Source: a virus
Reading direction: 5' to 3' (one strand)
Virus record (IMG/VR): IMGVR_UViG_3300025759_000874
Coordinates: 1-20,993 of that record
DNA length: 20,993 nucleotides
The notes beneath the pieces are model-generated. The model saw only the letters and a list, made by a program, of their open reading frames with translations, was not told the origin of the DNA and did no database searches. Shown piece by piece: positions 1-15,054 of the stretch (its first letter is position 1; each line of letters starts with the position of its first letter). The position numbers were made by a program, and so were the translations under genes.

Positions 1-2437
1 CACCCCAACTTAATGTACCAGCTGCGTCACTTAATAGTACATCCCCAGAAGTAGTTGCATCAGTAGCTGGAAGGACCCAAGTAACATTAGTAGAAACTGT
101 ATCAGCAGATTTAAAAGCAACATAATGAGTTGAATCTGCGTCATAAAATTTAACTTCACCTGTTGCTTTTAAGCCAATACCAGATCCAAAGTCACCTGAT
201 CCTGTAATAAAAATATCTTCAGTAAAATATGCGTCACCAGTAACAGTTAATTTTTCCCTGATAATACCAGTATCAACAGTTAATGTAACAAAATGTCCTG
301 TTGTGCCTGTAATAGTTGTAAATGCGCCTGATGTCCCACTTGCAAAAGTGAATACACCAGTGTCTACATTTACCCTTGCAAAATCCCCAGTGGTGCCTGT
401 GATTGTGCCACCTGTTAATACATCAAAATTACCACCGCTACCTGAAATAATTAAACCTGTTATATTTGCATCAGTAAATAAACCACTAGCACCTGAAACA
501 TAGCCACCAGTAGTTGTAATGTTACCTGTTGTTTCAATAACGAAATTAGCAACTGTAAAGTTACCTGTTGTGAAACTAGCGGTAACACCAGTAATTAAAG
601 TAACTCCAGAAATAGTAGTGATTATTCCACTAGTTCCACTGATGGTATCAAAATCCCCTGTGGCACCTTGAACAGTAGTTCCGGTAACAAGAGTAAATGT
701 ACCAGTTCCACCAGTTAAATTAGCAAAGTTACCAGTGCCTCCCGTTACAGTTGTTCCACTGACTAGAGTAAAGGTTCCTGTTCCTGCCGTTGCTTGGGTA
801 AAACTACCAGTAGCGCCTGTAACGGTGGTTCCGCTAACAAGCGTAAACGTACCAGTTCCACCTGTTAGTGTTGGAAATTGACCAGTAGTTCCGGTAATAG
901 TACCGCCATAAATTGTTCCACCTGAAATAGTAGTACTACCTGTTAAATTGCTAAAGGTAGCTGCAGAACCTGTAATTGTATCTGTGGAAATTAAATTGGG
1001 TACAACTAAATTTCCATAGTAACCACTTGCATTATTGCCTTCGTAATTAAAACCATTTCCACCACTGTAATCTAGTGTTGTGTTATTACCTGTAATGTTT
1101 GTAGTCCCTGTATTTATATAGTAACCAGCACCACTTGCTCTATTGGCTACAGGTATAACTAATGGATCTTGAATATAAACAACACCACTTGGCTCAACAG
1201 TAATTACATCTCCTGATGTAGTTGAATTTACGATAAAGTCATAACCAGTTGCTCTAGCAACTGTTGTAATTCCTGTAATTAACGCATCTTCGCCAACGTA
1301 TAATTTTTTGCCAACAGTTAAATCGCCAGTTAGAGTTAAACTAGGAAAACTTAAAGAGCTTGTAAAAGTACCTGTTGCTGCTGTAATTGATGTAAAGTTT
1401 CCTGTATCGCCAGTGACTGTAGTTCCACTTATAAGAGTAAATGTGCCTGTATCGGTACTTAAATTATTAAAATTACCAGTTGCACCAGAAATAGTAGTGC
1501 CTGTTAAGTAAGTAAAACTTCCAGTGTCTGCTGTTAAATTACTAAAGTTACCTGTGTCTCCTGTAACATTTCCTCCTGAAACATAAGTAAAAAATCCTGA
1601 CGTACTAGTTAAATTAACAATTTGTCCAGTTGTTCCAGTAATTGTTGTTCCTTTTACCGTATCTCCTGATACCAGAACAAAATTACCAGTACCTCCTGTT
1701 AATGTTCCTAATTGACCTGTTGTTCCGGTAACTGTTGCGCCTGAAACAAGCGTAAATTTTCCAGTGCCTGCATCTAATACAGAATACTGGCCAGTAGCAC
1801 CTGTAATTGTAGCGCCAGTAATATTGGTCGCAGTAAAGTTAGTAAAATTACCAGTGTCTCCTGTTATTGTTGCACCTGATATGGTGCTTGTAACTGTGGC
1901 ATTTGTGCCAGAAATCGTAGTAATACTGGCAGTAGTACCGCTTATATTTTGACCAGTGACATTAGTAAAAGCACCTGTGGCGCCCGTAACAGTTTGACCA
2001 GAAAGTCTGACAAAATTTCCGCTGCCTCCAGTTATAGTTGTAACTGTTAAATCTAATATATTTCCGGTATCGGTAAAAAGATTACCAACATTTACAACTG
2101 CTCCAGTAATATTCGCGCCACTTAATAGACTAGTAAATGTACCAGTTCCTGTACAATTTAAACGATTAAAAGTGCTTACACCTGTAACATCAATATTTGC
2201 GGGAGAAAAATTTCCTCCAACAGAAAGATTTCCGGTGACCGTTAAGTTACCGGAAACAGTTCCGCCAGTTAATTGAAGATAGTAAAAATTATAGTATTCT
2301 TTTGAAGAAGCAAACGTAAATTTTTTATTTTTTAAACCAGGGTCAACCTCAGAAACATCAACAAGCGTATACAGATCATCGTCTGCAATACTAGAGGCAT
2401 TAATAGCGCCTAGTTCTGTAATCTTTCTATCGGCCAC
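1..2437 (-). CDS. Tail-fibre-like repetitive structural protein, N-terminal part (C-terminus beyond left edge)
   Basis: The minus-strand frame stays open from a GTG at 2437 to base 2, giving 812 codons with no stop. GTG is chosen because an in-frame TAA lies directly before it and the product begins VADRKITELGAINASSIADD, the kind of short N-terminal module many cyanophage fibre proteins carry. After about 65 residues the protein becomes a long array of Thr/Gly/Ser-rich units of 25 or 30 residues (pattern TGxFTLVSGTTVTGATGNF), interrupted near the middle by a less repetitive domain. The last visible part (WVLPATDATTSGDVLLSDAA, then GTLSWG) resembles the stretch before the C-terminal domain of many phage tail fibres. 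Such repeats usually form a trimeric beta stalk. I infer an adsorption fibre or appendage. The receptor-binding or chaperone end is not in the window. No convincing Shine-Dalgarno site precedes the GTG. Confidence 0.85.
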   Translation of the reverse strand, partial: MADRKITELGAINASSIADDDLYTLVDVSEVDPGLKNKKFTFASSKEYYNFYYLQLTGGTVSGNLTVTGNLSVGGNFSPANIDVTGVSTFNRLNCTGTGTFTSLLSGANITGAVVNVGNLFTDTGNILDLTVTTITGGSGNFVRLSGQTVTGATGAFTNVTGQNISGTTASITTISGTNATVTSTISGATITGDTGNFTNFTATNITGATITGATGQYSVLDAGTGKFTLVSGATVTGTTGQLGTLTGGTGNFVLVSGDTVKGTTITGTTGQIVNLTSTSGFFTYVSGGNVTGDTGNFSNLTADTGSFTYLTGTTISGATGNFNNLSTDTGTFTLISGTTVTGDTGNFTSITAATGTFTSSLSFPSLTLTGDLTVGKKLYVGEDALITGITTVARATGYDFIVNSTTSGDVITVEPSGVVYIQDPLVIPVANRASGAGYYINTGTTNITGNNTTLDYSGGNGFNYEGNNASGYYGNLVVPNLISTDTITGSAATFSNLTGSTTISGGTIYGGTITGTTGQFPTLTGGTGTFTLVSGTTVTGATGSFTQATAGTGTFTLVSGTTVTGGTGNFANLTGGTGTFTLVTGTTVQGATGDFDTISGTSGIITTISGVTLITGVTASFTTGNFTVANFVIETTGNITTTGGYVSGASGLFTDANITGLIISGSGGNFDVLTGGTITGTTGDFARVNVDTGVFTFASGTSGAFTTITGTTGHFVTLTVDTGIIREKLTVTGDAYFTEDIFITGSGDFGSGIGLKATGEVKFYDADSTHYVAFKSADTVSTNVTWVLPATDATTSGDVLLSDAAGTLSWG
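676..900 (-). repeat. Exact-period 75-bp coding repeats in the fibre gene
   Basis: Three successive units place the same core (plus-strand gagta or gcgta followed by aa) at 691, 766 and 841, an exact 75-bp or 25-residue spacing. Each unit encodes a close variant of TGTFTLVSGTTVTGATG. DNA identity is imperfect, mainly at third positions, so this is an old, selected protein repeat rather than a recent slippage expansion. Confidence 0.75.
1435..1840 (-). repeat. Second block of 75/90-bp coding repeats in the fibre gene
   Basis: The same motif recurs at about 1435, 1510, 1585, 1675, 1750 and 1840. The spacings are 75, 75, 90, 75 and 90 bp. The 90-bp units carry five extra residues (for example VKGTTITGTTGQ in place of VTGATGN). 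The 25/30-residue alternation suggests a stalk assembled from two unit lengths. Confidence 0.65.
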
Positions 2438-2485
2438 TTAACTACATACAACCTGTTTCATCATTATAAATCCCCTGTATCTGAT

Positions 2486-2862: not shown

Positions 2863-3270
2863 ATGATGACTGGAATTAGAAAAGCAATAGAAGACGTTGC
2901 TCATGAACTAAAAGGAATTAAAAATATTCTTAATTCTTTATGGTTTGAAAAAACTAAAGACGATAAAACTATTTCTTTATGTCCTGATGCTTATGCCGAT
3001 GAGTACGTTTCAACGGAAGAATGCGGACGCCGTTTAAATGTATCTGATCAAACAATTAGAAATTGGATCGCAGTCGGCCGAAATAAAGCTGACAAAGGAT
3101 GGAAAGAAGGTATACACTATATAAATATTGCGCCTGATCCTGGAAAAAAAGCGATTATTCGTATTCCTTGGAATCAATTGATTCAATCTTTTAGTAAGAA
3201 TAAAAAAATTGAGTCAAGCGATTTTTTCAAAAGCGCTTTATACAAAACCTCTCACAAAGATACTTTATAA
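2863..3270 (+). CDS. Excisionase-like helix-turn-helix DNA-binding protein
   Basis: A 135-residue product. Residues 47-75 (DEYVSTEECGRRLNVSDQTI, then RNWIAVG) form a MerR/excisionase-type helix-turn-helix. It is followed by the wing-like stretch GIHYINIAPDPGKKAIIRIP, which in this fold carries basic residues that contact DNA. The same arrangement is seen in the protein at 12484-12720, so the two are probably distant paralogues. Residues 1-30 are an amphipathic helix rich in Lys and Leu that may serve for dimerization. The gene opens the plus-strand operon and starts 17 bp from the divergent gene at 2845, so any promoter must overlap one of the two coding ends. The next gene starts one base after its stop. 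It could be a transcriptional regulator or a recombination directionality factor. Confidence 0.75.
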   Translation: MMTGIRKAIEDVAHELKGIKNILNSLWFEKTKDDKTISLCPDAYADEYVSTEECGRRLNVSDQTIRNWIAVGRNKADKGWKEGIHYINIAPDPGKKAIIRIPWNQLIQSFSKNKKIESSDFFKSALYKTSHKDTL

Positions 3271-11982: not shown

Positions 11983-12360
11983 TTATGCAGCTTCTGGATC
12001 TGGAGACAAGTTATTTACATTATAAGATTGAATACTGCAAGAAATGTAAGATACATCCATCCAGTCTTTAATTCTCTCTAGTCTTTCTTGACAAAAGTAT
12101 TTTTGTTCACGAAACCATTCCTCCATATTGCAGCTACCTTTATTACTATTACAACGTTGGCAAGATGGAACCAGGTTATTACGATTACTAGAGCCTGATT
12201 TAAAACGAGGAATAATATGATCTAAAGATGTTGCTGGTCTACCACAATAACCACAACAGTGGTTCCAGGCTTCGTATATTGATTGTCGATAACGTTTTTT
12301 GGCTAACCGAGGAGTGACTTCAATGAGCATAGAGAGGGGTTCCTTCTCGTCATTGAACAT
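11983..12360 (-). CDS. HNH endonuclease
   Basis: A 125-residue product from the ATG at 12360 (GAAGAG just upstream). A second ATG at 12330 (MLIEVTPRLAKKRYR) with AAGGA 10 nt upstream is also plausible. The HNH core is complete: zinc-binding C36-x2-C39 (CGYCGRP), catalytic D47-H48 (SLDHIIPRFKSG), NRNNLVPSCQRCN with the second C67-x2-C70 pair and the conserved Asn at about 62. Such proteins nick or cleave double-stranded DNA. In phages they act in packaging with the terminase or as free-standing homing nucleases. No terminase gene is next to it, so the homing-nuclease reading is at least as likely. It is divergent from the HTH gene at 12484 and is the first gene of the minus-strand run. Confidence 0.9.
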   Translation of the reverse strand: MFNDEKEPLSMLIEVTPRLAKKRYRQSIYEAWNHCCGYCGRPATSLDHIIPRFKSGSSNRNNLVPSCQRCNSNKGSCNMEEWFREQKYFCQERLERIKDWMDVSYISCSIQSYNVNNLSPDPEAA

Positions 12361-12483
12361 CTCTTCAGTTGCGGTTACTTTATTTTAAGATTCCTAAATT
12401 CGTATAAAAATAAGAAATGTTTATTAAAGCCATTAATAAGTTTGTTTTTCTATGTACTTTAAATATGCAAGCCAAATTCTTCT
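12361..12483. other. Divergent intergenic region (123 bp)
   Basis: AT-rich sequence between the divergent HNH and HTH genes. It must hold promoters for one or both. On the plus strand the stretch tatgtactttaaatatgc (about 12450-12468) has AT-rich, -10-like elements, but I see no well-spaced -35 box, so no promoter is called. Confidence 0.4.
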
Positions 12484-12720
12484 ATGGCAAAAGCACCTGA
12501 GTCAACCGGATGGTTTTCAATCAACAAAGCAGAGGAGATGCTTGGCTTAGACCGCAAAACTCTTTTCCGTTTCCGTGATGATGGAACCCTTAAGCTTGGC
12601 ACCCACTTTACAGCATTTCCTGGGAAAACCTGGTCACGAGACAGCTATTACTGGAATGTCAAAGCCGTTCAGCGCTTCTTGCAGACACAAGCAAGCGATC
12701 AGCAACCAATGGCTGCTTAA
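12484..12720 (+). CDS. Excisionase-like helix-turn-helix protein
   Basis: A 78-residue product. Residues 10-36 (WFSINKAEEMLGLDRKTLFR, then FRDDGTL) form a MerR/excisionase-type HTH. GTHFTAFPGKTWSRDSYYWN and VKAVQRFLQ complete the small winged fold typical of cyanophage and cyanobacterial excisionase-like proteins. The order of elements is the same as in 2863-3270. It is the only plus-strand gene between 6316 and the right edge. It overlaps the integrase-like gene tail-to-tail by 62 bp, and a strong plus-strand terminator lies 113 bp past its stop. It could be an excisionase or directionality factor of a former integration module, or a small regulator. No clear Shine-Dalgarno site is seen. Confidence 0.75.
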   Translation: MAKAPESTGWFSINKAEEMLGLDRKTLFRFRDDGTLKLGTHFTAFPGKTWSRDSYYWNVKAVQRFLQTQASDQQPMAA

Positions 12721-13096
12721 TACTTGTATAGTATTGTTTCCTGATTTTATAAGCTAATAATAAATCTGTAATATTTAATTCAATCCGTTGATTAGCCATT
12801 TCTTGATACAAGTTATAGCACAGTGTTCTAATACGGCCCCATAATTTTTGGGGTCGTTTTTCTTTTAAATTAAATAAAATAACCCACTGTGGATGCAGTG
12901 GGTAAATAGGACGTTTTTTATTTTTAATAAAAATAGTATTATCAGGACCCCATTTAAAGTCCCATAGTTTATCTGGCTTAACGCCATAAGTGGCAATCAT
13001 GCCATAAAGCCACGCAACGTTTTTTAATTTACTAAAAGAAAGTAGTTTAAAATAATCGTTTACAATTCGTTGATCAGTAGGAGGAGCGAGTTCCAT
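12659..13096 (-). CDS. Integrase-like protein (tyrosine recombinase catalytic-domain relic)
   Basis: A 145-residue product. The order of motifs follows the catalytic domain of cyanobacterial tyrosine integrases: KNVAWLYGMIATYGVKPDKL (25-44) aligns with the box I region [M/A]TYG-[L/I]-RPHE, IFIKNKKRPIYPLHPQWV (55-72) with the beta sheet KTG-xR-xxxPLxPEW, and ITDLLLAYKIRKQ (109-121) with YDLRHAYAIR. At each catalytic position a different residue is found: Lys40 in place of Arg I, and Leu113/Leu114 in place of the Arg and His of the HxxR-type box. The protein ends before the tyrosine box. This is recalled family knowledge, not an alignment I ran. I infer a non-catalytic descendant, possibly a DNA-binding protein. 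Its last about 20 residues are antisense to the HTH gene. Confidence 0.6.
   Translation of the reverse strand: MELAPPTDQRIVNDYFKLLSFSKLKNVAWLYGMIATYGVKPDKLWDFKWGPDNTIFIKNKKRPIYPLHPQWVILFNLKEKRPQKLWGRIRTLCYNLYQEMANQRIELNITDLLLAYKIRKQYYTSIKQPLVADRLLVSARSAERL
12834..12866 (+). terminator. Rho-independent terminator on plus strand, inside the antisense integrase-like gene
   Basis: Stem CGGCCCCA (12834-12841) pairs with TGGGGTCG (12849-12856), 8 bp with one G-U wobble and a 7-nt loop. TTTTTCTTTT follows immediately. Stem strength and U-tract are textbook for the plus strand. It would end the transcript of the HTH gene 12484-12720. Confidence 0.75.
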
Positions 13097-13204: not shown

Positions 13205-13417
13205 TTAAACGCCACTCGCAAAGGCTGCCCAACAAGCTCCTAGGGCTTCTATAGTTGATGTTTCACCACTCTCATAAGGTAAATTAACTACATCACCAGC
13301 ATGGTATACAGTGGGTACTCCACTAGCTTTAATGTTACTAAATCCGTATTTGCGAACATTAATTTGTTCTTCCGAAAGAACAAAAACACCATCAACAATA
13401 TCACCAAAGTCAGCCAT
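13205..13417 (-). CDS. Small putative virion protein
   Basis: A 70-residue product, MADFGDIVDGVFVLSEEQIN through a Gly/Ala-rich end (ALGACWAAFASGV). It looks like a small beta-rich protein, with VPTVYHAGDVVNLPYESGE in the middle. The ATG overlaps the stop of the 545-residue gene (TAATG), so it is co-translated with structural genes and is the last gene of the capsid-side cluster. No family is recognised; a minor structural or stabilizing protein is inferred from position only. Confidence 0.65.
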   Translation of the reverse strand: MADFGDIVDGVFVLSEEQINVRKYGFSNIKASGVPTVYHAGDVVNLPYESGETSTIEALGACWAAFASGV

Positions 13418-15054
13418 TACGTTCCAGGTCTCCCACCTTGATATGGAATGTATTCTTTACCATTTTTATCATACATTCTAAAGCTCGACATTTGAACAAA
13501 ATCACTTGGTATATTAAATAGTTTCTGTGCCATTGGCATCATCATTGGAGCACCACAGTTATAAGGTGGTACATCCATTTTAGATAACCCATTTTTTACA
13601 ATTTCATATTCAGCTTTTTGATTATCTTTATTGGTTTGCTCTACCAGTTTTTGCTCCCATTCTGTTAAACCTTCTGCTGTTCCAACCGGAAAATCGGATG
13701 GCTCTGGCGGAAATACTTTTTCAGCAAATTTCATTGCATAGATATGTTTGCAATATCGAATTTCATCCAATAAAGGAGTCCAAAAGTCTGTAATTGAAGT
13801 TATGTTATAAGATCCATCTGGATTTCTTGAACTGTCATAATCGTTATAGCTGGGCATGCCTTCTGACCTTGCACCTTCAATAGAAGGTAAAGGAGTACTT
13901 CTTGTGTATACACCACCAAAATCTCTAAACATGCCAGGGCGATCTCTTAACGCACCTCGTTGTGTATCACTGGTTGGAGTAACCTGAGGTGGTATTTCGT
14001 ATTCAGCAGATGGAGCAACCACTTCCATTGCTCTATCTTCAGTTCCTTTTGACATTGCTCGATCATCAGGAATTGGATTTCCAAAACGATCTAGTTGTGG
14101 GCGCACCGTAGGTATAGGGCCAACACCAGTAACAACTTCACCTTTATACATTCTTTCAAAACGACCTGGTTTTACGGTTGATGCTTTAGTACGTGGAAAA
14201 ATTTTATTATTATTCGTGCTCCCAAGCTGGGAAATATAAGCGTAATCTCTTCTTGTAAAGTCTTGACATGAACAACAATATCTTGTTCCAGTCATCATGA
14301 ATCGACCTAGTTGAGGACTTGTTCTTGCTGGTGTAACAAAAACAGCATCCGTGGTTGATTCAACTGAACCTTGTTTTTGTAATTTAATAATTCCAGTTGC
14401 TTCTTGCGTTTCTACAACAACGGCTTGAATATAACCATATCTTTTTTGTGTTGTTGGATCAATTGTTTCTGAAGTAATTGGAGCACCACCATCAACGACT
14501 ATTCTGGTTTCAAATATTTCACCATTCATTGGATAAAGGGGTGGTCTACCAGGTCCTGTAAACACGTATAAAGGGGCTGGTAAAGGATTAAAAATACTCC
14601 AGTTTCCTGCTAATTTAACATACCAATAATCTTTGTCCTCTGTTACTGATAATATAGATGCTTTAGTCCCTAAGCCATCATTAATATTATCTAAACGTAA
14701 ACTTCCGCCTAGTCTTACACCGGCCCAGTGCATGCCAAGTTCTTTGTTCTTAGTTGGAAAACCTTGAAAAACACCTGGTATTCTTGGTTGTTGTCCTGTT
14801 GTTGGAACAGTGCCTACAGGAACAATATAATCAAATGGATAACTATAGACTTGCCCTATAGAACTATTTGAATAAATTTCAAAACCTCTTCTCCAGCGTG
14901 ACCAAGCTGATTCTCTATTAGAACTATAAATTGAATCAGGAACTGAGCCTTTAGAAAACTCAGTTCTGATTGGTGTTATGCCTTTAGGTTCAATACTTTT
15001 TGATTTAGCAAATGAATTAAAAGAACCGAAGGAGTTTCCGTTCTTTTTTCCCAT
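13417..15054 (-). CDS. Virion structural protein with a split SWIM-like zinc motif
   Basis: A 545-residue product. Residues 1-55 are Ser/Lys-rich and probably flexible (MGKKNGNSFGSFNSFAKSKS). Residues 60-250 look beta-rich. At 258-269 it reads TRYCCSCQDFTR and at 432-442 IRYCKHIYAMK. Together these give the SWIM zinc-finger pattern CxC...CxH (Cys261, Cys263, Cys435, His437), in which the two halves are normally 6-25 residues apart; here about 170 mostly Pro/Gly/Arg-rich residues are inserted. SWIM domains bind nucleic acid or protein. The C-terminal part (443-545) includes a charged helix (EWEQKLVEQTNKDNQKAEYE). It is the largest gene between the capsid gene and the integrase-like gene, between other structural genes, with 2 bp or less to its neighbours. 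I infer a neck, portal-side or tail protein. Confidence 0.7.
   Translation of the reverse strand: MGKKNGNSFGSFNSFAKSKSIEPKGITPIRTEFSKGSVPDSIYSSNRESAWSRWRRGFEIYSNSSIGQVYSYPFDYIVPVGTVPTTGQQPRIPGVFQGFPTKNKELGMHWAGVRLGGSLRLDNINDGLGTKASILSVTEDKDYWYVKLAGNWSIFNPLPAPLYVFTGPGRPPLYPMNGEIFETRIVVDGGAPITSETIDPTTQKRYGYIQAVVVETQEATGIIKLQKQGSVESTTDAVFVTPARTSPQLGRFMMTGTRYCCSCQDFTRRDYAYISQLGSTNNNKIFPRTKASTVKPGRFERMYKGEVVTGVGPIPTVRPQLDRFGNPIPDDRAMSKGTEDRAMEVVAPSAEYEIPPQVTPTSDTQRGALRDRPGMFRDFGGVYTRSTPLPSIEGARSEGMPSYNDYDSSRNPDGSYNITSITDFWTPLLDEIRYCKHIYAMKFAEKVFPPEPSDFPVGTAEGLTEWEQKLVEQTNKDNQKAEYEIVKNGLSKMDVPPYNCGAPMMMPMAQKLFNIPSDFVQMSSFRMYDKNGKEYIPYQGGRPGT

Follow-up and report, generated by a model that had tools for sequence, protein, structure and literature searches.

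Cyanobacterial tyrosine integrases of the PF00589 type are proteins of about 360 aa, with examples in Microcystis aeruginosa NIES-298 (WP_103113473), Picosynechococcus (WP_065717415) and the phage contig L127. In phage Int-Xis modules, an integrase gene lies beside a small HTH excisionase-like gene. A dead phage integrase is usually dismissed as a remnant of a lysogenic lifestyle that has been lost. In eukaryotes, DUF3504 of animals represents domesticated Crypton tyrosine recombinases in which the catalytic tyrosine, Arg II and other tetrad residues have been lost, and for which DNA- or protein-binding roles have been proposed; the yeast proteins Gcr1 and Cbf2 are treated in the same paper (PMC3212892).

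The locus considered here comes from a virus record of 20,993 bases, analyzed over its whole length and referred to below as the window. The gene of interest (12659-13096, minus strand) is an ORF of 145 aa with an ATG start and a predicted pI of 9.9, which encodes an integrase-derived, catalytically dead mini-protein; the name FAM is used for this ORF and for its family. FAM shares with the cyanobacterial integrases ~111 aligned columns (P-x-D..I...WxYGMxATYG-x-x-P / hairpin / PLxPxW..LF-L / DL..A..R), a probably similar predicted fold and, in the case of some integrases, an HTH/Xis-type neighbor. It differs from them in its smaller size, in the absence of N-terminal or core-binding domains, in the replacement of Arg I and Arg II, in the loss of the GH...Y end, in carrying an embedded antisense terminator, and in matching no Pfam or PHROG family. 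Like DUF3504 and Gcr1/Cbf2, FAM keeps a tyrosine-recombinase domain after catalytic loss, whereas DUF3504 is eukaryotic, belongs to another recombinase lineage, is found within larger proteins and has no Xis partner. An integrase-type gene with a small, excisionase-like HTH gene as its neighbor recalls phage Int-Xis modules, but here the two genes overlap tail-to-tail, the integrase is non-catalytic, no att site was found, and the pair is located in a late structural block of phages that mostly carry no other integrase. Synechococcus phage S-EIV1 (KJ410740) has the same local gene order as the window, including the xis-like and HNH genes, but it lacks FAM, with only 50 bp between its c17 homologue and the xis-like gene.

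Each of the motifs quoted by a first-pass annotation of this DNA was found in the translated ORF: ATYGVKPDK at residues 35-43, RPIYPLHPQW at 62-71 and DLLLAYKIRK at 111-120. Their counterpart in the cyanobacterial integrases reads WxYGMxATYGLRPHE ... YPLxPEW ... YDLRHAWAIR. Scans of Pfam, PHROGs, PADLOC and PDB sequences gave no family match for FAM; there was no DUF3504 match in Pfam, and neither the window protein nor any of the 73 members tested matched PF00589. Rfam and tRNA scans returned nothing, and no sigma-70 promoter for FAM was seen at a consistent position near its start. A search for close relatives yielded 8 FAM loci, while a degenerate YGM-x-ATYG pattern brought in >100 others, almost all of which encode this same protein on its own; further scans raised the family to 163 loci and 116 distinct core sequences. 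All sampled carriers, which are uncultured viruses of cyanobacteria, fall within the lineage of cyanophage S-EIV1. FAM was not found among cultured phages in the collection searched (INPHARED tblastn, three members as queries), and scans of host genomes with narrow back-translated patterns gave no copies, which is weak evidence of absence.

Profile comparison strongly upholds the annotation's view that the protein retains the framework of a cyanobacterial tyrosine recombinase. Aligned by hhalign with five full-length integrases from viral contigs, FAM gave a probability of 98.3% over 111 columns. These five integrases, like the FAM homologues, had been fetched via their common YGMxATYG motif, an ascertainment bias for which two controls were run, namely masking of the motif and use of an independent integrase profile. 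Masking of box I left the family HMM able to match the L127 integrase at 5e-8, relative to 2.8 for the best shuffled decoy, although most of the other integrases were lost; the family HMM was also tested against 4,082 ORFs, and the outcome is counted as support for integrase homology. The second control, a profile of three integrases of cyanobacterial plasmid origin that had not been picked by the YGMxATYG motif, detected the window FAM at E=1.6e-6 (4,082 ORFs) and recovered 155 family members, with the first unrelated ORF at 0.14. This profile evidence makes FAM a homologue of the cyanobacterial tyrosine integrases that covers the front of their catalytic domain; by alignment, it starts ahead of Arg I and reaches as far as the Arg II helix. 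Homology starts at approximately residue 194-233 of the integrases, and the frame has no room for an N-terminal core-binding domain. By reference to Cre/Xer structures, the part retained presumably begins where the catalytic domain begins, extends as far as the Arg II helix, and takes in the beta-hairpin plus what we take to be the counterpart of the Cre helix that contacts the major groove.

An AlphaFold model of FAM, built with 113 family sequences, had a pLDDT of 89.4 (89 for residues 1-127) and a pTM of 0.86. A comparison of folds had been suggested in the first-pass annotation, and the model probably resembles a tyrosine-recombinase catalytic domain: 17 of the top 18 Foldseek matches in the PDB were tyrosine recombinases, including XerA, XerH, XerD, lambda Int, Cre, Tn1549 Int and archaeal Xer (TMq about 0.27-0.57), but their E-values of 0.45-3.4 were not individually significant. 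A fold search of BFVD gave no significant match, with some integrases among the weak ones.

The replacement of active-site residues reported earlier (Lys for Arg I, Leu-Leu for R-H, and no tyrosine box) is seen in the integrase alignment. Codon 40 (12977-12979, minus strand), at the Arg I position, specifies Lys in the window; among the 116 members this residue is K in 74, T in 14, H in 7, N in 6, Q in 5 and R in 2. Codons 113-114 (12755-12760, minus strand), at the positions of Arg II and the adjacent His, specify Leu-Leu, corresponding to the Arg-His of the integrase "LRH". Position 113 is L, I, V, M or Q in 115 of the 116 members and R in the other; no member (0/116) has both Arg I and Arg II. 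The GH...Y box, i.e., the His/Trp-Tyr end, is absent, and most of the cyanobacterial relatives that are catalytic already lack the His of H-x-x-R, usually having Tyr instead. The broader claim that all catalytic residues have been lost stands for Arg I, Arg II and the tyrosine box, apart from the rare arginines just mentioned, but it goes slightly too far for the catalytic beta-hairpin Lys, which may be kept as K61 (Lys in 114/116 members, Arg in 2/116). Judged from its sequence, FAM cannot cleave DNA by the tyrosine mechanism, since it has neither the core-binding domain nor the His/Trp-Tyr end and, in nearly all members, neither Arg I nor Arg II. A separate C-terminal half of an integrase was looked for elsewhere in the genome and not found, and 15 of 16 long FAM contigs (44-84 kb) had no second integrase by Phage_integrase match. 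In the 83.5-kb, FAM-carrying record of L060, L142:1099-1968 encodes a tyrosine integrase of 290 aa that looks complete and belongs to a different type.

Selection on the protein, rather than random decay, had been proposed from the residues kept, and is supported by a median dN/dS of 0.14 (Nei-Gojobori, 183 pairs of moderate divergence). Together with the number of loci and distinct sequences, this value indicates that FAM is not a decaying relic. When loci were sampled by means of the HTH motif of the xis-like gene, FAM was present in 51 of 100 new loci and absent from 49, some of the latter being cut by contig ends. Its absence from many relatives, S-EIV1 among them, implies that its function is dispensable. 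S-EIV1 is the sole isolate in the phage collection to match the window in its capsid protein (84% identical) and in a 545-aa protein (61%). When the 545-aa protein is used for a tree rooted at its midpoint, FAM carriers fall on either side of the root, and the presence or absence of FAM changes 21 times, with at least 16 of these changes forced by supported branches. The pattern fits an old component that has been repeatedly lost, or exchanged; the counts cannot separate gain from loss.

The partner of FAM is an excisionase-like HTH gene of the HTH_17 type (12484-12720, plus strand) that encodes 78 aa and converges on FAM with an overlap of 62 bp. Its product scores 18.5 bits against HTH_17, under the cut-off of 27, and matches the PHROG 66 excisionase at E=2e-4. 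The xis-like family also matches HTH proteins located near a full Picosynechococcus integrase (1.7e-6) and near a full integrase on contig L018 (6e-4). Since these relatives lie close to real cyanobacterial integrases, the locus looks like a derived Int-Xis module. The tail-to-tail arrangement, noted previously for the window only, proved to be nearly invariant: a convergent xis-like gene occurs at 159 of 160 informative FAM loci, and the 3' ends overlap in 157 of the 159, by a median of 47 bp. The lone locus with full context but no recognizable xis-like gene is L100 (4825-5643), where HNH follows almost directly after FAM. In a set anchored on HNH instead, the xis-like gene was found at 88/88 FAM loci and at 36/41 FAM-less loci. 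Evolutionary distances of FAM and Xis correlate with r=0.75 over non-overlapping parts (partial value 0.62, given the 545-aa neighbor), compared with 0.28-0.46 for the other neighbor pairs tested, although physical adjacency by itself can raise such a value.

Where context exists, FAM is set in a late-strand block with the 545-aa protein (13417-15054, minus strand; the basis of the phage tree) on one side and HNH, a ~1000-aa protein and endolysin on the other. A small upstream protein of 70 aa (13205-13417, minus strand) is present in S-EIV1 and in part of the relatives. The HNH endonuclease (11983-12360, minus strand) is a fixed neighbor on the late strand; its PADLOC matches to PDC-M01B and PtuB involve the HNH part only and give no evidence for a defense system. 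In the divergent xis-HNH intergenic region (12361-12483, plus strand), about half of the relatives have a sigma-70-like -35 sequence ~55 bp upstream of the start of xis, though it is not evident in the window. The leader AATCTTAAAATAAA-TAACCGCAACTGAAGAG that precedes the HNH start (12361-12400, minus strand) is strongly conserved in the lineage, and largely so in S-EIV1 too; it may act as a leader element or as a late promoter.

In FAM-less relatives, the site flanked by the 545-aa/c17 genes and the xis-like gene is a slot for cargo, and it can carry either psbA (photosystem II D1) with hli-like genes or tail genes with collagen-like GXT repeats together with a glycosyltransferase (L162:600-2930, L240:4320-6620 and L172:860-3240; also L146, L189, L157 and L217). 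A full integrase in this slot was considered and rejected, as eight long slots that were inspected contain psbA, glycosyltransferase or tail genes. Elsewhere in the window, a second HTH protein (2863-3270, plus strand) has a weak likeness to excisionases or regulators (PHROG E about 0.01) and is not matched by the xis-like HMM, and positions 1-2440 (minus strand, running past the window edge) are repetitive and read as a long tail-fiber-like protein with TG-rich repeats.

A feature missed by the first-pass annotation is a predicted antisense terminator embedded in FAM codons 77-90. Hairpin A (12833-12857, plus strand), within codons 80-88, is followed on the plus strand by TTTTCTTTTA according to the terminator scan, with a U-tract at 12858-12867 (plus strand) that is antisense to the LKEK codons of FAM and is 83% U over 57 sequences. 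Relative to synonymous-codon shuffles, hairpin A has a z of 12, the strongest of 2,659 possible hairpins. Compensatory changes affect 9 of the 10 stem pairs in these 57 sequences (<85% identical), and cells in which both partners have changed number 90, vs 30 in shuffles. On the xis strand, the stem pairs in 98% of cells (560 of 570), 461 as Watson-Crick and 99 as G-U pairs, with none of the A-C mismatches that would read as G-U on the FAM strand. Pairing of this kind indicates selection as RNA of the xis transcript. With its GC-rich stem-loop, U-tract and RNA-level conservation on the transcribed strand, hairpin A is predicted to be the intrinsic terminator of the opposing xis-like gene. The terminator follows directly after xis in 32 of 35 FAM-less relatives, and lies within the body of FAM in 122 of 123 carriers. 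A dip in dS accompanies it (0.38 in codons 77-90 vs 0.87-0.98 in codons 31-62 and 91-122). Outside codons 63-90, dN/dS is 0.10-0.13 (0.12 in codons 1-62 and 0.11-0.12 in codons 91-122), so selection acts on both the protein and the RNA signal, and conservation of LKEKQP is in part that of RNA rather than purely of protein.

A second terminator-like element, hairpin B (12882-12903, minus strand), occupies codons 65-72 (YPLHPQWV) and is followed by a T-rich stretch. It has a z of 6.4 against synonymous shuffles but is treated as unproven, since its pairing (83%) is barely above that of shuffled sequences (82%). If hairpin B does terminate, full-length FAM would need translation-coupled read-through.

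The favored account, to which an even chance is given, is that FAM descends from one half of an earlier integration/excision module, now reduced, and that it assists the Xis-like protein without catalysis, by binding DNA or a partner. The two proteins would most likely regulate phage transcription, with a DNA- or partner-binding role for FAM proposed from its basic character and from its retention of the beta-hairpin and DNA-contacting-helix region. The simplest account for the C-terminal loss would be that xis collided with the 3' end of int. The xis-like transcript would be expected to run ~110 nt into FAM, on the opposite strand, before it stops, and thus mutual regulation by transcriptional collision or antisense pairing may occur. 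More tentatively, and with clearly less than an even chance, the Int-Xis module may have been rebuilt as a non-recombining regulatory pair that is coupled both at the protein level (shared DNA or complex) and at the RNA level (collision or antisense). Against an accessory or regulatory role, the DNA affinity of FAM may be weak without the core-binding domain and catalytic arginines, the protein is dispensable, as judged from the relatives without it, and no conspicuous operator- or att-type repeat stood out in the window.

Alternatively, FAM might interfere with competitors that share its cyanobacterial host (temperate phages, plasmids or genomic islands): it would poison recombination by their active tyrosine integrases, either occupying the att sites or entering the tetramers as a dead subunit. 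Its derivation from an integrase type of cyanobacterial plasmids (Microcystis, Picosynechococcus) would suit such a role, as would its accessory nature, with about half of the relatives lacking it and 16-21 changes on the tree, as for genes tied to particular rivals. Nevertheless, interference appears rather unlikely, as it leaves the strict pairing with the xis-like gene without explanation. Moreover, FAM has no core-binding domain, nor does it have the C-terminal region by way of which the subunits of recombinases such as Cre/Xer usually associate.

Reuse of the fold outside of DNA work, for example in virion assembly or as a chaperone for the surrounding structural genes, is suggested by the position of FAM in the late-strand block. 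It is harder to reconcile with the Xis linkage, the pI of 9.9 and the many relatives that have the same structural genes but no FAM, and is considered distinctly improbable. The terminator raises a further possibility, namely that function resides mainly at the DNA level and the frame is an ageing relic that persists because of the xis terminator. While the strong, covarying conservation of hairpin A within the frame and the associated drop in dS are in keeping with this idea, it is largely refuted by the low dN/dS of codons outside of the hairpins and by invariant residues distant from them; in addition, FAM-less relatives possess the terminator without the frame, which is therefore not needed for it. 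Such a relic is regarded as very improbable. Scarcely any credence is given to a split or Xer-hijacking system in which an active recombinase, either host Xer or a resident integrase, acts in trans under the direction of FAM and Xis, since, although an Int-derived and Xis-like pair without catalysis of its own and the complete-looking integrase in the L060 record are compatible with it, no att repeat or dif-like site rose above chance, no copies were found in genome contigs with the patterns tried, and nearly all of the long FAM contigs lack a Phage_integrase match.

If the reading of FAM and Xis as a regulatory pair is true, the module would parallel, among viruses, the domesticated Crypton recombinases known from animals. 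With >100 distinct sequences in a widespread cyanophage lineage, FAM offers a testable case of a recombination module put to another use. Hairpin A shows clearly how a predicted terminator can be maintained by covariation within a protein-coding gene on the opposite strand, a caution that RNA signals may underlie residues that look "conserved" where phage genes overlap.
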